Shown: positions 6,351 to 18,192 of the stretch, piece by piece
Layout: every line of letters starts with the position of its first letter
How positions within the stretch are numbered: position 1 is the first letter of the stretch
Assembly: GCA_021735645.1 (NCBI GenBank)
Contig: JAIPGP010000028.1
Location: 1-39,301, forward strand
Direction: 5' to 3'
Source: Candidatus Cloacimonadota bacterium
GTDB lineage: Bacteria > Cloacimonadota > Cloacimonadia > Cloacimonadales > TCS61
DNA length: 39,301 bases
Program-made: the position numbers and the translations under genes
The notes under the pieces: generated by a model
The model's input: the letters and a program-made list of their open reading frames with translations, nothing else
What the model was told of the DNA's origin: nothing
The model's database searches: none

Positions 6351-6442
6351 CCGGAACCGAAGAGTTAATGCAATTGGTCAGTGGCAAGAAATAGCCGCAT
6401 AAATTGGATAAAGGTGTGGGATTTTTGAGAGAAGCAAGCAAA

Positions 6443-9400
6443 ATGAATCATAGTCAGTCAGGCAAAAGAGCTCGCTGGTTTGTGGTCCGCAGTTCAATGT
6501 TATTGATAGCTATATTTCTGATGGGCAGTCTGAAAGCAAACACATTTCCAATCAAATATTATCTAACAGGTTTACCCAAAGTAGAGAATGCTGAATTAGA
6601 TTTATTAAAGATTCCCGCCGGTTTGAGTATGGTACGCAATCAGGCAATAATTTTCCGGGAGATGAAAACTAAAACAGAAGTGGAGATAGATCAGGAGCTC
6701 GAGAGGGTGTATTTTGTAGTAAGCTGGGGTTCAATAACGAATCTTTATCCGCGTTACAGCATGAGCTATAGTAGTTATTTTAAACAGGTATTCAGGAAGG
6801 TTTTTCGAGATGAGTTATTTACGAACAGCAAGGAATTACTGGCAGAGAAGGAGCGGAGCAGCGGACAGGGATTAATAGGAGATTTCACTTTTAAATTACC
6901 GGCAGCGGCACGGAAATCGAAGATAGTACGTGGAATTCTTGGGAATCAGGCAGGAAGTTTGAGTCTGGATGGTAGTGAGAAGATCACCATAGGCGGCAGC
7001 AGCAGCAAGAGCAATCGGACAACAGATGAGTCGGGTGATAACCGTGATTTTGATTTAACGATGAAGCAGGAGCTTAATCTGCGTTTGCGGGGGAAGATCG
7101 GGGAGAAGATCAGTGTGAATGTGAGTCATCAATCGAGCAGTGATGACAGTTTTACGCCGACAAATGATGTAGTGGAGATCAGCTATGAAGGAACAGAAGA
7201 TGAGGTGATCAAGAGCATAGAGGGTGGTAATATTGCCTTGGCGCTGACAGGTTCGCAGTATATAAGTTATTCAGCATCCTCGAAGGGATTATTTGGTGTG
7301 AAGACAGACATGGAGTTTGGTAATCTTCATGTAACAGCGATTTTAGGCAAGGATGAAGCACAGAAAGACCAGCAGAAGTGGAATGGCAACAGCAGACCGG
7401 ATTCGACGGCTTATGCGAGTGATAGATACGATAAATTCCGGTTTTATTTTATTACTGATCCGAGGTATTTATATACTTTGTATGGAGATGCTGGAGATAC
7501 TGAGGTAGCGGGAGTGGATTATCCTGCTGGCTGGGAAGGAAATGCCATCCGCACCAATGGTGGTAGATGGATAATGAAGGCTGGGGCTGATGACCTTTTG
7601 CCGGTAGGCGGAACGCTGCACGTATATTTTGATGATGGCACGAGTAACAATGAGGGTTTAACTCTGGATGGCATCAATCTTTATGATCCATCTGATGATA
7701 ATATATATAGTTTCACAGAATTAGTAGAGGGAACGGATTTCACTTTTGATTACAACATGGGACTGCTTTATATCAACCGGACAATAACAAAGCTGCATGC
7801 CCTGGGAGTAGCATATCAATTATCCGATGGCACTCTGGTGGGGCATCGCACCGCAGAATATAATCCCATCGAAGTGAAGATAATTAAGAAACATAATCAA
7901 TCGCTGGAAGAGGACCCTGATTATTGGAAACTTGAAGCGCGTAATATTTATAGTTTTGGAGAAGGAATTCAGAGTGAAGGATTTGAGCTTTATGTATATG
8001 ATGACCTCTCAGCGGACGGGACACAGACAATAACCTGTCCAGCTGAATATTCTACTCCGCTGCCGGCAGGAACCAGCTACAATGAATACTTGCGCTTAGA
8101 TACAAATGGAGATGGTGTGGTTAATGGAGAAGATGAGACAGTTTCACTGGCATCTGGCTATTTAACATTCGCATTTCTCGAGCCATTTAGAGGAGTGGGA
8201 GACGGGATAATCTATGAGAAGGATCGAGTGAATTATGATGAAATTCACCTCAAGATAGTTGTAAAGGGAAAGGTCAGTAATGACCAGATAACTCTGGTGC
8301 CGAATATATTGCCGGGCAGTGTAACAATAAAACTGGGAGAAGGAGCCACTGAGCGGGAATTGAAGGAAAATGTTGATTACATAGTAGATAATGAATTTGG
8401 GATAATCACGTTTATGATTGCTGAGGCAAGGGACCCTGATGCGGTATTGAATATCACATATAATTATAAATCAATTTTTACCGTGGACAGCAAGACTTTA
8501 GCAGGATTTCGGGCGGATTGGGATTACAGTGATAATTTTAATATAGGAGCTACGTTTGTCTATCAGGATGAGCAGGTGAAGGAGGATCATCCCAAGATAG
8601 GCAGTGAGAATAAAACCTTGATCCTGAGTGCGATAGATAGCCGTATGGAGTATGAACTGCCCTATTTAACGAAGTTTATTGACTGGCTGCCATTGATAGC
8701 CACTGATGAGGATTCAAAATTGACGATCAGCGGGGAAGCGGCAATGAGCTTACCAAAGGTATATGGTAATCCTGATAATCCTGAGGAAGCCTATTTAGAC
8801 GATATGGAAGCAATTCAGGAGAGCTTTCCTCTGGGAGTAGTGCGATCTGGCTGGTCTCCTGCTTCCAAACCTTATGACACCAATCTGGCAAAGGCATTGC
8901 CGAACTGGTATAATCCTCAGAATATTTATCGTAAGGATGTATATGACCCGGAATCATTAACGAGTGATGAAGAAGATGAAGAAATTCAGGTAATAGCCTT
9001 GAAACTTCGACCGCCCAATATACACAGCCCTGGAGTGAATAACCGTTATTGGGGTGGATTAATGAAGTATGTGGGCAATCAGATTGATTTTTCGACCAAG
9101 AAGTATCTGGAAGTACTGGTGAAGGTGGATAGTTTAAGTCAAAATCAGTCACCGGTAGTGATGCATATAGATATTGGAGACATCAATGAGGATTTTTATA
9201 CAGATTTTGGAGGAGAAGGGGTATTAAATACCGAAGATGGCAAGAATGGGGGAGTATCAGACGGTCAGCTTGACATTTATGATAATGTGGATGAAGATAT
9301 TGGTCTGGATGGCATAGCAGATGGTGAGCCGGGAGATGATCCTGAGGATAATTATGATGGTGATAAGGATGATGAGGAAGATTATCCCGAGATAAACGGC

Positions 9401-12400
9401 ACAGAAAATAATAAGAAACTGGATACAGAAGACCTTGATAACAATGGAGAATTGAACGATTCGGATGTGTATTTTGAGTATTCGGTAACCTTGGAGGATA
9501 CGGTATTTCTGGAGAATGTGTATAATGGCTGGTATTTATACCGGATACCCATTGATGACGAGGAAAATTTCCGGGAAGTGAGTAATAAGAATATATCACC
9601 TGATCTGGAACGGGTAAGTTTTGCGAGGGTATGGTTTGAAGTAGAAGAGGAAACTCGAATTAAGATAGTAAATGTAGATATGATAGGTAATAAATGGGAA
9701 TCAAACTTTATTCGTGATGACCAGGAGAATATCATCAGTGAATATGAACTGGAAAACAAACGTGAAAAGATGCAGGTGAGTATCATTGATAATCAAAAAA
9801 GTCTGCATTACACACCAGCACCGGGTTCTGTGATCAAACAAAGTGGTGAAGAGACGCTGGAGCAGTCCTTATATATAGATTTTACAAATCTTCAGTCGTC
9901 ACATCATGGTCTGGTTCGCCAGAAATTTCAGGATTCATACAATTTTCTGAATTATAATCGGATCAGGTTTTGGGTGTATTCCGAGAAGCCGGAAAATATG
10001 ACAGCAGATCAACCTCATGATCTGATAATTCGGATAGGAGCAGACTCAACGAATTATTATGAAGTGACTTATCCCTTAGACAGCAGTGATTATCAGGTAG
10101 AAATGGATAAAGACAGCTGGATCAACCTTGATCTTGATTTTGCCTTACTAACATATCTGAAGTCACCTGATCTGGAAGACAGCAGTTATGTGCAAGAAAG
10201 TGATTATCTGAGTTATTATTATCATGATGATATGCGGATAGAAATGCACAAGGAACCCACTTTGAGCAATATCAAAGAGGTTAGTCTGGGTGTGGAAAAT
10301 AATGGAGATGCACCATTCTCAGGTCGAGTATATTTTGATGATATCCGTGTCGCAGAACCATATAATGATGTTGGCTATGCCGCGAGAGGCACGGTGAATC
10401 TGCAAATGGCAGATTTTGCCAGTCTGGATATTAATACAGAATGGAAAACTGATAACTTTCAAAATAGTGCGACGCGACAAAGTACAGTACCTAATACGGA
10501 AAAAATTCAATCTTTAAATATAAATGGTAATGTAAATCTTCATAAATTCTTTCCCGCCCAGTGGGGAGTAAATCTGCCACTGGCTTTAAGTCGGCAGGAG
10601 AACCATAAAGTTGCCAGATTTATGAACAGAAGTGATATTTTATGGGAATATCTGAATGACGAGGACAAGGAACGGGAGCAGAGTCATTTCCTGAAATATC
10701 GGGCAGATTTGACACTGGGTCTGAATAAATCACCCAATACGAGCTGGAAGCTCTGGAACGGATTTGTGGATAAGACTTTTAAGGCAACAACTTTAAGCGG
10801 TTATATAGAGAAGAAATTTGATGTGAAGCCGGCGTCCGCGGATACTACCTTGACGTATCAGGTGAAACATGCCTATAAATTGACTATTCCCAAAGATAAA
10901 GTGGGGATAGGAATATTGAAAAATTATAAGTTCTATCTGATACCTCAATCATATACCAGCAGTTTGACTTATAAAGCGGAATTACCTGAGGGACGGCGTT
11001 GGAGCTGGAAAACTTATGGAGATAGTGCCCATTGGGAGTTGACTCCGAATGTGATCAATACCAAGACTTTAACCACCTCATCAAGCGTGAAGTATGATAT
11101 CCTGACTGATTTCACTTCGGATTACAGCTTAAAAACCACGCGGGATATGATGCTGGAGAAATATTGGCAGGACTATAATATAGGAACCGAAAAGACCCGT
11201 GACCAGACAATTAATCTCTCTTATAGTCCCAAGTATCTCAGTAATATTTTATCCTATAGTTCGACCTTAAAGATCAAATACAGCGATAAAACCAATAAAA
11301 GGACATATAATAGTGATGAAGATGATTATTACTATCAGGGTGGAGTAGATCGGGATTTTGGCACCAGGCTGACATTGAAGAACCATGATGTAATGATGAG
11401 TTTTGTGAACTGGGTCTGGAAAGATGCACCAGCCGGTAAAGACCAGGGTAGTGAAAAGCCAGGCAAGCCGGGAGCAGGAGCTGGGAAAACGGAGGAAGAT
11501 TCTAAAGGTGGATTAAATCCAGATAAGTTTGAGAATCCAGAAGAGAAATTTCATCCAGATGAGATGCGATTGCCTGAAAACGAGCTGCGTCAACCTGATG
11601 AGAATCAGCTAGCAGAAGATGAGAAGAGAAAAGAAGCTGAATTAACCGGTAGAGAACCGGAAAAGGGTGAAGCTGGCAGCGAAAAACAGGGTGAAGTAGC
11701 TGGTGAGGAAACCGAGCCCGTGGTAAAGGTGAATTTAATTAAAGCAGCGGTGGAATATATCAGCGGATTAGAGAATTTGAACATAGATTTTGATAACAGC
11801 TACAGTACAGATTATGACGATCTAAAACAGCGACCTTCGCTGGAATATCAGTTGGGATTTCCACATATACTCACGGAAGAAGACACTGAAGACAGCACAG
11901 GCGCTAATATAGAAAAAGAAATAACCATGCGTCAAGACATCAATGGTGTGAGTGTATCGACTGGCTTCCCGATCTGGCGTAATTTGACAACCAGCTTGAG
12001 CTTTGACTGGCAGATATCGCAGAAATACACTAGCTCTACAACCCAGACAATAACCACAAATTTTCCTAATGTGCGGGTAACATTGAGTGATTTCCAGAAT
12101 CTTCTGGGAATCAGCGAAATACTTAAAAGCAGTTCCTTAACTTCCAGTTATGCAGTTACCAATAAACAAACAGGAGTAGTGGACTGGGAGAAGCCCACTT
12201 CTGAAGAGCAATCGCTTAGTTTTAGTCCGCTTCTTTCGTGGCAGGGAAACTGGATAAAGGACATCACTTCCAGATTTAACCTGAATCATTCACAATCAGA
12301 AATTATCCAGTATCAGGAGCAGGGAAACATCGTTCGCAATTCTACGAATCAATCAGCGACAATGGATTTGAGCTGGTCATTTTCGGCTGAGAAGGGTTTG

Positions 12401-12682
12401 AAACTGCCCTTGATGAAGAAACGTTTTTATATCAAGAACGAAGCAACCTTGAGTTTGAATGCTACTTACAGTAAGAGCTGGAGTACACGTATTGGCTATG
12501 ATAATGAAACGCAGAAAGATGAAGATCAGATGAATTTCAGTTTGAGACCTCAGATTTCATATGATTTTTCTAAGAGCATTACTGCCGGTTTGACTAGTGA
12601 GTATAAAATAAATAACAATAATAAGGCAAACAATAAATTGACGACCTTCAGTTTATCGATGTGGGTAGAGATAATTTTTTAG
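6443..12682 (+). CDS. sprA: SprA-family giant outer-membrane protein (type IX secretion translocon type)
   Basis: Protein of about 2,079 residues. In Bacteroidota, SprA (SovP) is the very large outer-membrane barrel through which type IX secretion substrates leave the cell. The signature appears early, with GSLSLDGSEKITIGGS and KGLFGVKTDMEFGNLHVT, followed by thousands of residues of alternating beta-strand pattern. A basic n-region and hydrophobic stretch (MLLIAIFLMGSLKA) form the export signal. The ATG at 6443 is used; an internal ATG at 6497 is possible, and neither has a strong ribosome site. Distinctive features are a dockerin-like calcium loop (DTNGDGVVNGED) near residue 553, a very Asp/Glu/Gly/Asn-rich stretch around 912-1013, and a charged Pro/Glu/Lys linker around 1660-1762. 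No other type IX genes are in the window. Confidence 0.88.
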   Translation: MNHSQSGKRARWFVVRSSMLLIAIFLMGSLKANTFPIKYYLTGLPKVENAELDLLKIPAGLSMVRNQAIIFREMKTKTEVEIDQELERVYFVVSWGSITNLYPRYSMSYSSYFKQVFRKVFRDELFTNSKELLAEKERSSGQGLIGDFTFKLPAAARKSKIVRGILGNQAGSLSLDGSEKITIGGSSSKSNRTTDESGDNRDFDLTMKQELNLRLRGKIGEKISVNVSHQSSSDDSFTPTNDVVEISYEGTEDEVIKSIEGGNIALALTGSQYISYSASSKGLFGVKTDMEFGNLHVTAILGKDEAQKDQQKWNGNSRPDSTAYASDRYDKFRFYFITDPRYLYTLYGDAGDTEVAGVDYPAGWEGNAIRTNGGRWIMKAGADDLLPVGGTLHVYFDDGTSNNEGLTLDGINLYDPSDDNIYSFTELVEGTDFTFDYNMGLLYINRTITKLHALGVAYQLSDGTLVGHRTAEYNPIEVKIIKKHNQSLEEDPDYWKLEARNIYSFGEGIQSEGFELYVYDDLSADGTQTITCPAEYSTPLPAGTSYNEYLRLDTNGDGVVNGEDETVSLASGYLTFAFLEPFRGVGDGIIYEKDRVNYDEIHLKIVVKGKVSNDQITLVPNILPGSVTIKLGEGATERELKENVDYIVDNEFGIITFMIAEARDPDAVLNITYNYKSIFTVDSKTLAGFRADWDYSDNFNIGATFVYQDEQVKEDHPKIGSENKTLILSAIDSRMEYELPYLTKFIDWLPLIATDEDSKLTISGEAAMSLPKVYGNPDNPEEAYLDDMEAIQESFPLGVVRSGWSPASKPYDTNLAKALPNWYNPQNIYRKDVYDPESLTSDEEDEEIQVIALKLRPPNIHSPGVNNRYWGGLMKYVGNQIDFSTKKYLEVLVKVDSLSQNQSPVVMHIDIGDINEDFYTDFGGEGVLNTEDGKNGGVSDGQLDIYDNVDEDIGLDGIADGEPGDDPEDNYDGDKDDEEDYPEINGTENNKKLDTEDLDNNGELNDSDVYFEYSVTLEDTVFLENVYNGWYLYRIPIDDEENFREVSNKNISPDLERVSFARVWFEVEEETRIKIVNVDMIGNKWESNFIRDDQENIISEYELENKREKMQVSIIDNQKSLHYTPAPGSVIKQSGEETLEQSLYIDFTNLQSSHHGLVRQKFQDSYNFLNYNRIRFWVYSEKPENMTADQPHDLIIRIGADSTNYYEVTYPLDSSDYQVEMDKDSWINLDLDFALLTYLKSPDLEDSSYVQESDYLSYYYHDDMRIEMHKEPTLSNIKEVSLGVENNGDAPFSGRVYFDDIRVAEPYNDVGYAARGTVNLQMADFASLDINTEWKTDNFQNSATRQSTVPNTEKIQSLNINGNVNLHKFFPAQWGVNLPLALSRQENHKVARFMNRSDILWEYLNDEDKEREQSHFLKYRADLTLGLNKSPNTSWKLWNGFVDKTFKATTLSGYIEKKFDVKPASADTTLTYQVKHAYKLTIPKDKVGIGILKNYKFYLIPQSYTSSLTYKAELPEGRRWSWKTYGDSAHWELTPNVINTKTLTTSSSVKYDILTDFTSDYSLKTTRDMMLEKYWQDYNIGTEKTRDQTINLSYSPKYLSNILSYSSTLKIKYSDKTNKRTYNSDEDDYYYQGGVDRDFGTRLTLKNHDVMMSFVNWVWKDAPAGKDQGSEKPGKPGAGAGKTEEDSKGGLNPDKFENPEEKFHPDEMRLPENELRQPDENQLAEDEKRKEAELTGREPEKGEAGSEKQGEVAGEETEPVVKVNLIKAAVEYISGLENLNIDFDNSYSTDYDDLKQRPSLEYQLGFPHILTEEDTEDSTGANIEKEITMRQDINGVSVSTGFPIWRNLTTSLSFDWQISQKYTSSTTQTITTNFPNVRVTLSDFQNLLGISEILKSSSLTSSYAVTNKQTGVVDWEKPTSEEQSLSFSPLLSWQGNWIKDITSRFNLNHSQSEIIQYQEQGNIVRNSTNQSATMDLSWSFSAEKGLKLPLMKKRFYIKNEATLSLNATYSKSWSTRIGYDNETQKDEDQMNFSLRPQISYDFSKSITAGLTSEYKINNNNKANNKLTTFSLSMWVEIIF

Positions 12683-13732: not shown

Positions 13733-15898
13733 ATGCGAATTAATAAGAAATATTTATCAGTAATTGTTTTATTAGTTTTTCTGGCAGGTTGCAGTGTGAG
13801 TGAGATGATGGAGAAGCAGTATTACATATTTGATTATAATAATCATGATGAAAGAACAGACTTGTTTCAGGATAACGCTCTGCCATATTCAGTGATCATC
13901 CAGGATGCTCGAATTTCTCAAACTTATACCCGTAAGCAGATAGTTAAAAGGCATTATGGACCTCAGATACGTTATATGGATTATCAACTGTGGGGGGTCA
14001 GATTGCAAGATGCTATTCCTGATCTAGTAACAAAGCGGATTAATAGATATAACATTTTTGACAGCGCAGATCGAACCATGACAGTTGATTACCCTGATTA
14101 TCAAATCAATATTGCCATAAATAATCTGGAAATTTATGAAACTGCCTATCTTTCGGAGGCACATCTGAATATTGAGTTTTCCTTTATGAAAATGAATGAA
14201 GCAGGTAAAGAAATTCCTGAAGCAGATATTACCTATAATATCGACCGAACTGCCCGAATTCAGAAGGATGATATAGAGGCATTCGTCCAGAAAGTGAATG
14301 AAATGATCCTCCATGAAACAGATAATTTTATTGTCCGGATTCTCAACAAATTTACCGGTTTTAAAGAACTGCAGGAGACCGAAAAAAGCGCAGTCTCAAG
14401 ATATGAGGAAGTAGATTATTCGGCAGAAGTAATCGGTGATACAATCTCAACTGATGAGCGGGGGATAGGTTTATTATATCTGCCAAATCTTTCCGGTGAA
14501 GAAAACGAACCTTATTATTATGTATATGGCAAAAATGGAGAAATGGCAGGAAGTGCCAGGATGGGTGAAGAATTACCCCTTAGGGAAGGAATATATAATG
14601 TGGAATATGGCTCAATGCGAGAGTCACGGATGATGTCAAAGAAAGTTGATATTAAGCCTCGCTGGCGCTATAATGTAGAACCTGACTGGGGTTGCCTGAT
14701 CGTGGATGTGATGGATGAACAGCGTAATTATGTAAAAGTAAGTTATACTATTTATGATAATGAAGATGGTTTTGATTATGGTATTGATTATCCGGCAGAT
14801 GTAAATCTGGGAGAAAAAACAAACATCTGGGTGCTGAAACCAGGCACATATAAGGTGACTTTAAACAGTGAATCCTTTAATTCATACAGGAACTTTACCA
14901 CTATTGAAGTAATGGAAAATGTCTGCCAGCGTCTGTCACTGGTGGTGGAAGAAGAAGAGAATACGGGGATTTACTCGCTCATAGGAGCCGGAGTGCTTAA
15001 TGAAGCAGATTCTAAAAAGAGGAATACTAACTGGGCTCTTGGCAGTGCCATTCACATGAATGTAAATTTAAATACGAATAACTCTGAGAATAGAGATGAA
15101 ACCAAGCTATCAATTAACGTAAATGCCCAGCTTGATAATTCTGCTTATTATAACAGGGAAAGATTACAGTATTCTCTTAAAAATCTGGTAGAACTTGGTA
15201 CTAATAAAGATGAAGATAATGCTCAGTTCCGGGTTGATCTGGATGATTTTGATCTCAAGAACACTGTAATTTTTAATGTGATCTCTGTTTTCGGATTTTA
15301 TGGCAGGTTTGATCTAAATACACATTTCTTCCCTGTTCAAGACTATGATGTTAATTATATAAAAATCTCTACAAGCGGCGATACTTTATCGATGGGAAAT
15401 TATGCCAGTACTATAGATACCAGTCCCTCCTTTTTCCCCATGATCCTCAAAGAAGGATTTGGTCTCAATTTCCAGTTCCTTAATACTGCCAGATCAAATA
15501 TGAATCTCCGGGTGGGTCTCGGTTCCCGACAGGACCTTCGGAATAATGTCTTTTCCAATTCTTCAGAATGGACGGATTCTCTTTCTGTTCCGGAAACAAC
15601 TTACCGGATATATACAGAGGAGGAATCGAGTTATTATGAAGGTATTGAAGCCTCGCTAGTGGGAGACCTTCAAATTCTCAGAAATGTCAATTATTCCCTT
15701 ACTGCTGATTTTCTTTTTCCATTTGATGCCGCTAAAAATTATACAATGGACCTGGAAAATATTTTCAATGTAAAGCTGTTTAAATATATTTCTCTTGATT
15801 ACCGGCTCAAGTTTTATTCAAAGGAATCGGAAGCTCAGGCAGATTATATTACAACCCAACAAAGTCTCTTTCTTAGATTCACTTATCTATTACGTTAA
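13733..15898 (+). CDS. Lipoprotein with PqiC-like (ABC auxiliary) N-terminus and predicted outer-membrane barrel C-terminus
   Basis: Protein of 721 residues. The signal peptide ends in the lipobox LAGC, so Cys20 would be acylated. Residues about 25-215 resemble the PqiC/ABC-transport auxiliary lipoprotein family: YYIFDY after the lipobox, then PYSVIIQDARIS, TYTRKQIVKRH and YMDYQLWGVRLQDAIP. Residues about 230-405 are beta-rich with PEGA-like turns (LKPGTYKVTLNS). Residues about 430-721 alternate polar and apolar strands with aromatic girdles and end in FLRFTYLLR, as expected for an outer-membrane barrel, possibly DUF3078-like. PqiC-type proteins normally stop near 190 residues, so this is a fusion. 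It lies 14 bases after mlaD and 5 before mlaE, so it probably is the outer-membrane end of this transporter. The N-terminal match is moderately sure; the barrel is inferred from pattern. Confidence 0.7.
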   Translation: MRINKKYLSVIVLLVFLAGCSVSEMMEKQYYIFDYNNHDERTDLFQDNALPYSVIIQDARISQTYTRKQIVKRHYGPQIRYMDYQLWGVRLQDAIPDLVTKRINRYNIFDSADRTMTVDYPDYQINIAINNLEIYETAYLSEAHLNIEFSFMKMNEAGKEIPEADITYNIDRTARIQKDDIEAFVQKVNEMILHETDNFIVRILNKFTGFKELQETEKSAVSRYEEVDYSAEVIGDTISTDERGIGLLYLPNLSGEENEPYYYVYGKNGEMAGSARMGEELPLREGIYNVEYGSMRESRMMSKKVDIKPRWRYNVEPDWGCLIVDVMDEQRNYVKVSYTIYDNEDGFDYGIDYPADVNLGEKTNIWVLKPGTYKVTLNSESFNSYRNFTTIEVMENVCQRLSLVVEEEENTGIYSLIGAGVLNEADSKKRNTNWALGSAIHMNVNLNTNNSENRDETKLSINVNAQLDNSAYYNRERLQYSLKNLVELGTNKDEDNAQFRVDLDDFDLKNTVIFNVISVFGFYGRFDLNTHFFPVQDYDVNYIKISTSGDTLSMGNYASTIDTSPSFFPMILKEGFGLNFQFLNTARSNMNLRVGLGSRQDLRNNVFSNSSEWTDSLSVPETTYRIYTEEESSYYEGIEASLVGDLQILRNVNYSLTADFLFPFDAAKNYTMDLENIFNVKLFKYISLDYRLKFYSKESEAQADYITTQQSLFLRFTYLLR

Positions 15899-16969: not shown

Positions 16970-17713
16970 ATGAATAATAATATTATAGAAGTTCGCAATT
17001 TAATCGCCAGATATGGTGAGAAAGTCATTCTTGATAATATCAGTGTAGATATCAAAGCTGGTGAAATTACCGTGATTCTGGGTAGCAGTGGTTGTGGAAA
17101 AACCACACTTCTCAAGAATATCCTCAGGCTTTATGAACCTTATTCCGGCAGCGTGAAGATTTTTGATGAAGAAATAACCTCTATGGATGAGCTGGAATAT
17201 AATAAAGTACTCAAACGAATTGGTGTACTTTTCCAGGGTGGAGCTTTACTGAACTCTATTTCTGTTGCCGAAAACCTGGCAATTCCTCTGGAACAGCACA
17301 CCAAGTTACCTCCTGAGATCATGGAAAGGATAATAAATTTAAAACTTGACCTGGTTAACCTTGCTTATGCTAAATATCTAAGTCCTTCAGAGCTTTCTGG
17401 TGGGATGAAGAAGCGGGTTGCTCTAGCCCGGGCTATTACACTTGACCCTGAATTACTGTTTTGCGATGAACCTTCGGCGGGATTAGACCCCATCACCAGT
17501 GCCAGCCTGGATAAACTAATTCTTAATCTTAAACAGAAACTGAAGATGTCTATTGTCATAGTTACTCATGAACTTGCCAGCATTCATCGCATTGCCGATT
17601 CCATAATCTTTTTGCATAAAGGCAAACTGCTCTATCATGGCAGCCTTAAAGATGCCGGTAATGCCAATATTCCAGAAATAGATGAATTCTTTGAGACAGG
17701 GAAATTCGATTGA
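16970..17713 (+). CDS. mlaF: MlaF-type ABC transporter ATPase
   Basis: Protein of 247 residues with a complete ABC nucleotide-binding domain: Walker A GSSGCGKTT (residues 38-46), a Q-loop (LFQGGALL), signature LSGGMKKRVALARA, Walker B LLFCDEPSAGLDP and the H-loop VTHEL. It powers phospholipid movement through MlaE. It starts 1 base after mlaE and overlaps the next gene by 4 bases. Confidence 0.96.
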   Translation: MNNNIIEVRNLIARYGEKVILDNISVDIKAGEITVILGSSGCGKTTLLKNILRLYEPYSGSVKIFDEEITSMDELEYNKVLKRIGVLFQGGALLNSISVAENLAIPLEQHTKLPPEIMERIINLKLDLVNLAYAKYLSPSELSGGMKKRVALARAITLDPELLFCDEPSAGLDPITSASLDKLILNLKQKLKMSIVIVTHELASIHRIADSIIFLHKGKLLYHGSLKDAGNANIPEIDEFFETGKFD

Positions 17714-18192
17714 AACAAAAGCTGCTGCTGCCCCGTTTCCTGCTGCGTGAGAACCTGTCAAAACTGGCAAGAAATCTGCGGTTTCTAGGTTATGATAGTG
17801 CAATATATAAGCAGATCAGTTTCGATAATTTTAAACGGATTGCGGCCAGAGATAAGCGGATAATACTCACAAGATCTCATCAGGAAGCTCACGCAAAATC
17901 TGATCTTAAGATCATTCTGATAAATTCTGATCAGGTAGATGAACAAGTGCAGGAAATCAGCTCAATCCTGAAGTTTGATCCAGTATTTATTTTCTCCCGC
18001 TGCTCGCTCTGCAATAAAATACTTTACGAGATTGCTAAGGAAAAAATAATAAACTCCGTTCCTGAGTATGTACTGACACATCACTCCCATTTTCGGATTT
18101 GCCGCTTTTGCGGGCATATCTACTGGGAGGGAGATCATTATCAGGCGATACACAGGCGTATGAAAAATCTGGTTGAGGATGGAAAGTCATGA
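17710..18192 (+). CDS. Mut7-C domain protein with zinc ribbon, apparently missing catalytic acids
   Basis: Protein of 160 residues starting at a TTG that overlaps the mlaF stop (TTGA); no better start is present. The N-terminal part follows the Mut7-C (PIN-like RNase) pattern, with LSKLARNLRFLGYD and RIILTRS. The C-terminus carries two CxxC pairs (CSLCNK and CRFCGH) that would bind zinc. Usual family members have an Asp where this protein has Arg (RFLLREN in place of FLVDxxL) and another Asp at the end of LTRD, here Ser. The fold is probably kept but nuclease activity may be lost. It overlaps the next gene by 4 bases (ATGA). A role linked to the neighbouring lipid genes is not evident. Confidence 0.75.
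   Translation: MKQKLLLPRFLLRENLSKLARNLRFLGYDSAIYKQISFDNFKRIAARDKRIILTRSHQEAHAKSDLKIILINSDQVDEQVQEISSILKFDPVFIFSRCSLCNKILYEIAKEKIINSVPEYVLTHHSHFRICRFCGHIYWEGDHYQAIHRRMKNLVEDGKS

Follow-up and report, generated by a model that had tools for sequence, protein, structure and literature searches.

The window analyzed here is a 39,301-nucleotide stretch of DNA from a genome of Cloacimonadota, a little-studied phylum of bacteria with two membranes; the closest relative with a name is Candidatus Stygibacter frigidus, at 72% identity. The window contains an operon with the gene order mlaD-fusion-mlaE-mlaF and intergenic gaps of 14, 5, and 1 nucleotides (Table 1). The original prediction had placed a PqiC-like N terminus, a β-rich middle, and a C-terminal barrel together in one 721-residue lipoprotein between mlaD and mlaE, and all of these elements were confirmed. 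At the N terminus of mlaE there is a weak MlaB/STAS-like signal (STAS, 0.068; mlaB_1, 0.0076). Directly upstream of mlaD, at 6404 to 12682, lies a gene for Sov/SprA, the type IX secretion translocon (TIGR04189, 4.3e-135), which is also found upstream in at least one relative. A 160-amino-acid open reading frame at 17710 to 18192 overlaps the end of mlaF; homologues occur near the operon at two other loci, and it is outside the conserved set.

Table 1. Features of the mlaD-fusion-mlaE-mlaF operon, with positions in the window
Feature	Position	Strand	Basis and remarks
mlaD, MCE-domain protein, 310 aa	12786..13718	+	PF02470 1.3e-13; TIGR00996 5.4e-18
Fused PqiC-like lipoprotein/β-domain/outer-membrane barrel protein	13733..15898	+	721 aa, ATG start
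Lipoprotein signal peptide, residues 1-19, lipobox LAG-C20	13733..13789	+	Direct reading; LPAM_1 0.0048
PqiC-type (PF03886/DUF330 fold) domain, residues 20-210	13790..14362	+	Pfam, AlphaFold2, Foldseek
Disordered linker, residues 211-243	14363..14461	+	pLDDT <50 at 215-242; lowest conservation
Conserved β domain(s), residues 244-421	14462..14995	+	No Pfam name; weak PEGA/Fn3-like matches
Outer-membrane β-barrel, residues 434-721	15032..15895	+	~12 strands; DUF481/DUF3078, model, Foldseek, strand alternation
mlaE permease, 354 aa	15904..16968	+	PF02405 5.5e-75; TIGR00056 2e-71
mlaF ATPase, 247 aa	16970..17713	+	PF00005 4.9e-32; MlaF = best NCBIfam match, 1.2e-57, below cutoff

The N-terminal domain of the fused protein belongs to the PqiC/ABC_trans_aux (PF03886) lipoproteins by its lipobox, its profile matches, and its fold. 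The cysteine of the LAGC lipobox, Cys20, is invariant in 34 of 34 aligned relatives. With the window protein itself, PF03886 just missed its cutoff of 26 bits in the protein scan (23.9 bits, 3.5e-5) and exceeded it in the genome scan (27.5 bits). The same profile matches 33 of the 34 relatives, with a best value of 2.3e-12, which is not the behavior of a random score, and the separate PqiC-like genes of other phyla pass the curated cutoff in all six copies tested. An AlphaFold2 model of the full chain, computed from the window sequence and related loci, has a mean pLDDT of 89.2 and a pTM of 0.54, the latter as expected because the domains are joined by a flexible linker. When this model was compared with the PDB by Foldseek, it matched the solved XCC0632/PqiC structures (PqiC/DUF330) with TMt values of 0.73 to 0.82 (6osx, 0.82; 8q2d, 0.77 to 0.81; 2iqi, 0.73 to 0.75), and 8q2c was also matched; outer-membrane barrels were among the hits as well. 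At the sequence level the relationship is faint: a family profile aligns with Escherichia coli PqiC at only E = 0.33, by way of the motifs NYYxL and LWA, and besides this weak match a PDB sequence search with the family profiles returned chance matches only.

Between the PqiC fold and the barrel, the AlphaFold2 model has the linker that the original prediction had named as a point of support, and it is disordered. The β-rich middle was likewise borne out by the model and forms a single conserved family with a two-part domain. In the C-terminal part, DUF3078 is found in 26 and DUF481 in 24 of the 34 relatives, and a model of the barrel alone reached a pLDDT of 94.1 and a pTM of 0.86. Every one of the 50 Foldseek matches listed for this model is an outer-membrane barrel protein, mainly of what we take to be the 12- and 14-strand classes. 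Their TM scores do not exceed 0.49, and the barrel is therefore not close to any solved barrel. The model contains 16 strand elements, counted from secondary structure only and without a check of closure on the coordinates, from which we read a predicted 12-stranded transmembrane barrel that has two long, kinked hairpins. Positions along the strands alternate, one face being hydrophobic at a fraction of 0.60 and the other mostly polar (0.22 hydrophobic), and the most conserved positions, such as R525, D527, K573, and R593, are inward facing and polar. The final strand, LFLRFTYLLR, is conserved; the window protein ends in arginine, and other lineages end in FLY or LFY. What had been called a barrel-like C terminus with an aromatic-rich last strand is thus a barrel fold by family and by model. 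Its polar lumen does not indicate a direct hydrophobic channel for lipids, and roles as an anchor or a lateral gate remain.

The family is present in 98 of 104 Cloacimonadota genomes (E cutoff of 1e-4), a few of them through weak barrel-only matches. Conservation of the fusion with mlaDEF in related genomes, another point of support named by the original prediction, was found: the order-level relatives keep mlaD-fusion-mlaE-mlaF as far as their contigs extend, save for two families with split genes. An MCE transporter is encoded at nearly every locus with sufficient flanking sequence, and a same-strand operon with mlaD, mlaE, and mlaF, in three gene orders, is seen in the order-level relatives and at named loci of several phyla. 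If N denotes the PqiC-like part, M the β domain, and C the barrel, the 79 named loci comprise 34 with the order D-NMC-E-F, 14 with D-N-MC-E-F, 6 with E-F-D-NMC, 3 with E-F-D-N-MC, and 2 with MC-E-F-D-N, most others being cut by contig ends. At three loci neither a PqiC-like gene nor mlaD was detected beside the barrel gene, and for two of these no mlaD or N gene was found upstream on the contig. The fused form occurs in most Cloacimonadota and in Myxococcota-type genomes. Separate genes are found in KSB1, Calditrichota, Gemmatimonadota, Fibrobacterota, Electryoneota, some Myxococcota, and several Cloacimonadota families, so that Myxococcota have both forms. Of 121 Fibrobacterota and 117 Myxococcota genomes sampled, 50 and 14, respectively, have the β domain. 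In the tree, some loci with titles such as Armatimonadota, Neomarinimicrobiota, or Spirochaetaceae branch inside the Cloacimonadota clade; these record titles may be wrong, or the genes may have been transferred. Two loci titled Spirochaetaceae sit on a long branch (1.88) within that clade, by transfer or as mislabeled genomes.

The roles that had been assigned to one chain are therefore on one chain in the window and encoded by separate genes of the same operon elsewhere; the fused arrangement is one version of a broader system with five parts. In a tree of the β-domain/barrel part, the fused and split labels require 5 changes, versus 26 for shuffled labels, and 4 of the 5 are forced by well-supported branches. 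In the split lineages examined, the N gene has a lipobox, and the MC gene encodes a type I signal peptide of its own, after which comes a W..P...QL motif. A similar stretch, WLMSTPREQL, lies in the longer linker of the fused proteins of one family and is absent from the window's family. Our inference is an ancestral split state with repeated fusion, including an independent one in Myxococcota. That some lineages join the parts and others keep them apart is a classic sign of parts that act together. Metagenome-derived genomes can join genes falsely, and one relative has a stop inside the frame, but the reading of the fusion as an assembly error or a chance joining of unrelated neighbors is already refuted by the data: full-length open frames without stops occur in dozens of independent assemblies, and the same parts are adjacent, or apart within the same operon, in other phyla. 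In several class-level relatives the two halves seem to be separated by an in-frame stop; read-through of it was ruled out, as the gene downstream has a start and a type I signal peptide of its own.

MlaD consists of an MCE domain and a C-terminal region of variable length, which we read as helical, with a conserved tail of approximately EFSRxISExPSxLLR in several phyla. Alignment and a Pfam scan of 13 MlaD proteins showed no barrel; it is the PqiC-type partner, and not MlaD, that provides one. In a Cloacimonas-like family (six loci), mlaD encodes 399 to 449 amino acids with an insertion of some 100 residues or more in the C-terminal region; the length of the needle therefore differs considerably across the phylum. 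The window genome has no match to MlaA (PF04333) or MlaC (PF05494), for which the E. coli and Caulobacter controls did give matches, and no PF03886 protein other than the fused one.

The operon was compared with known systems. With the six-part Mla system of E. coli it shares MlaD, MlaE, and MlaF, and MlaA and MlaC are lacking. Brucella Mpc (MpcEFD with MpcA) is similar in that a single operon encodes a MlaE/F/D-type transporter with a long MlaD together with a lipoprotein homologous to PqiC, and no MlaC homologue is present, and the window operon qualifies as such a combination of MlaEFD with a PqiC-homologous lipoprotein; MpcA, however, is a plain PqiC-like lipoprotein for which no β domain or barrel is described (PMC12436622). 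E. coli PqiABC has the PqiC fold, the lipobox, an adjacent MCE protein, and a PqiC ring that caps the needle, but PqiA comes without an ATPase, PqiB has three MCE domains, and there is no barrel partner (PMC10897342). In Veillonella, too, a barrel belongs to a MlaEFD system that lacks MlaA and MlaC; it is carried by MlaD, and no lipoprotein is involved (PMC10665443), whereas in the window it is on the PqiC-type partner, and no barrel fused to MlaD was seen in the 13 MlaD proteins. Bacteroidota TamL is an N-terminally lipidated member of a barrel family that is required for outer-membrane homeostasis, but it is TamA-like with TamB as partner and has neither a PqiC domain nor an MCE operon (PMC12045153). 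Pseudomonas PelBC likewise mounts a ring of lipoproteins with a PqiC-like fold on an outer-membrane barrel, in contrast with a 12:1 ratio of ring to barrel, separate chains, a TPR domain, and a function in polysaccharide export (PMC12141448). PelC is a structural homologue of PqiC (PMC10897342, PMC12141448), and the substrate of the window operon is unknown, which leaves room for an operon that exports something else, such as a polysaccharide or an unusual lipid, through a PelBC-like ring-on-barrel exit. We consider this improbable: the inner-membrane part, MlaE, MlaF, and MlaD, is of the lipid-transporter type, and no Pel or polysaccharide synthesis genes are in the conserved set. A PelB barrel with TPR in a Pel operon was not recognized either, the fused protein having no TPR match and its neighbors being MlaD, MlaE, and MlaF.

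The architecture, namely, the domains and folds, the operon and its conservation, the split and fused versions, and the absence of MlaA and MlaC, is well supported. On this architecture we propose that the fused protein forms the outer-membrane terminus of an MCE lipid bridge across the envelope, its PqiC part capping the MlaD needle and its barrel anchoring or opening it in the outer membrane. We put the probability of this reading at roughly 70%, its function and stoichiometry being inferred. MlaE and MlaF, with the probable MlaB-like domain on MlaE, would power the system at the inner membrane, and MlaD would form the MCE ring and the long needle. The PqiC-type domain, lipid anchored in the inner leaflet of the outer membrane, may oligomerize to a ring that receives the conserved MlaD C terminus. 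Both the oligomeric state and the contact are inferred by analogy with PqiC, whose ring receives the PqiB C terminus at the outer membrane (PMC10897342), with MpcA, which copurifies with MpcEFD (PMC12436622), and with PelBC, where the PelC ring sits on the barrel (PMC12141448). The flexible linker and β domain would then connect the ring to the barrel, which would fix the bridge in the outer membrane and probably help lipids enter or leave it; movement of phospholipids, its direction, and this role of the barrel are inferences as well. It speaks against the bridge model that no interaction, localization, or phenotype data exist. The original idea that a single chain could connect the MCE ring to the outer membrane is supported with a refinement: the fusion is the end piece at the outer membrane, and the envelope-spanning element is more likely the long MlaD, with which contact of the fusion is inferred.

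It is quite possible, although we would not favor it, that the barrel is a mere outer-membrane anchor or stabilizer of the PqiC-type ring and that lipids pass between the ring and the inner leaflet without involving the lumen. OmpC may serve MlaA in such a capacity. The polar lumen and the flexible linker would fit, and Brucella MpcA works without a barrel (PMC12436622), and most long MlaD proteins lack one (PMC10665443). A lipoprotein is already anchored, however, and retention of a barrel in several phyla therefore suggests a role beyond anchoring; its most conserved positions also face inward.

How a bridge ending in PqiC-type domains and barrels would be built is constrained by the fusion, which limits the stoichiometry of ring subunit to barrel to 1:1 where the two are fused and so raises a geometric question: either there are several barrels per bridge or the ring is unlike that of PqiC. 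If the PqiC domain is octameric as in E. coli, eight barrels would surround one bridge, a geometry that is unproven; on the basis of prediction, the authors of the Veillonella study judged six barrels in a ring to be unlikely (PMC10665443). A pore or lateral gate made of several barrels on one PqiC-type ring, exchanging lipids with the outer membrane, would be a distinct translocon for MCE bridges, common in the FCB group and part of Myxococcota, where neither MlaA-porin nor MlaD-barrel applies; we regard this as speculative and rather unlikely.

It is still an open question how MCE bridges are joined to the outer membrane. A 2023 survey found the MlaD barrel in some phyla and completely absent from the FCB and PVC groups, and it noted that systems lacking a barrel may have proteins that are still unidentified (PMC10665443). 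For Cloacimonadota, Fibrobacterota, KSB1, Calditrichota, Gemmatimonadota, and some Myxococcota, the barrel proteins described here are candidates for what is missing: they are encoded by the operon of the transporter itself and in some cases are fused to the known PqiC-type ring protein. Such a fusion is direct evidence at the genome level that ring and barrel go together. What we rate as new with respect to known systems is an MCE transporter whose end at the outer membrane combines a PqiC-type part with a barrel. No description of the fused protein was found in the literature searched, which left bioRxiv and most subscription journals out of scope, so that an earlier description is not excluded; in NCBIfam there is no name for either half of the separate genes. 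Species with split genes would permit separate deletion of each half.

The window genome has a second MCE locus on another contig (C78, 4530 to 9182), with a mlaF-like ATPase gene, a mlaD-like gene (PF02470), and a gene for a 1,005-amino-acid protein with matches to Peptidase_MA-like domains, a PD40 propeller, and a C-terminal Omp85 barrel. Thus, a barrel gene lies beside mlaD at both MCE loci of the genome.
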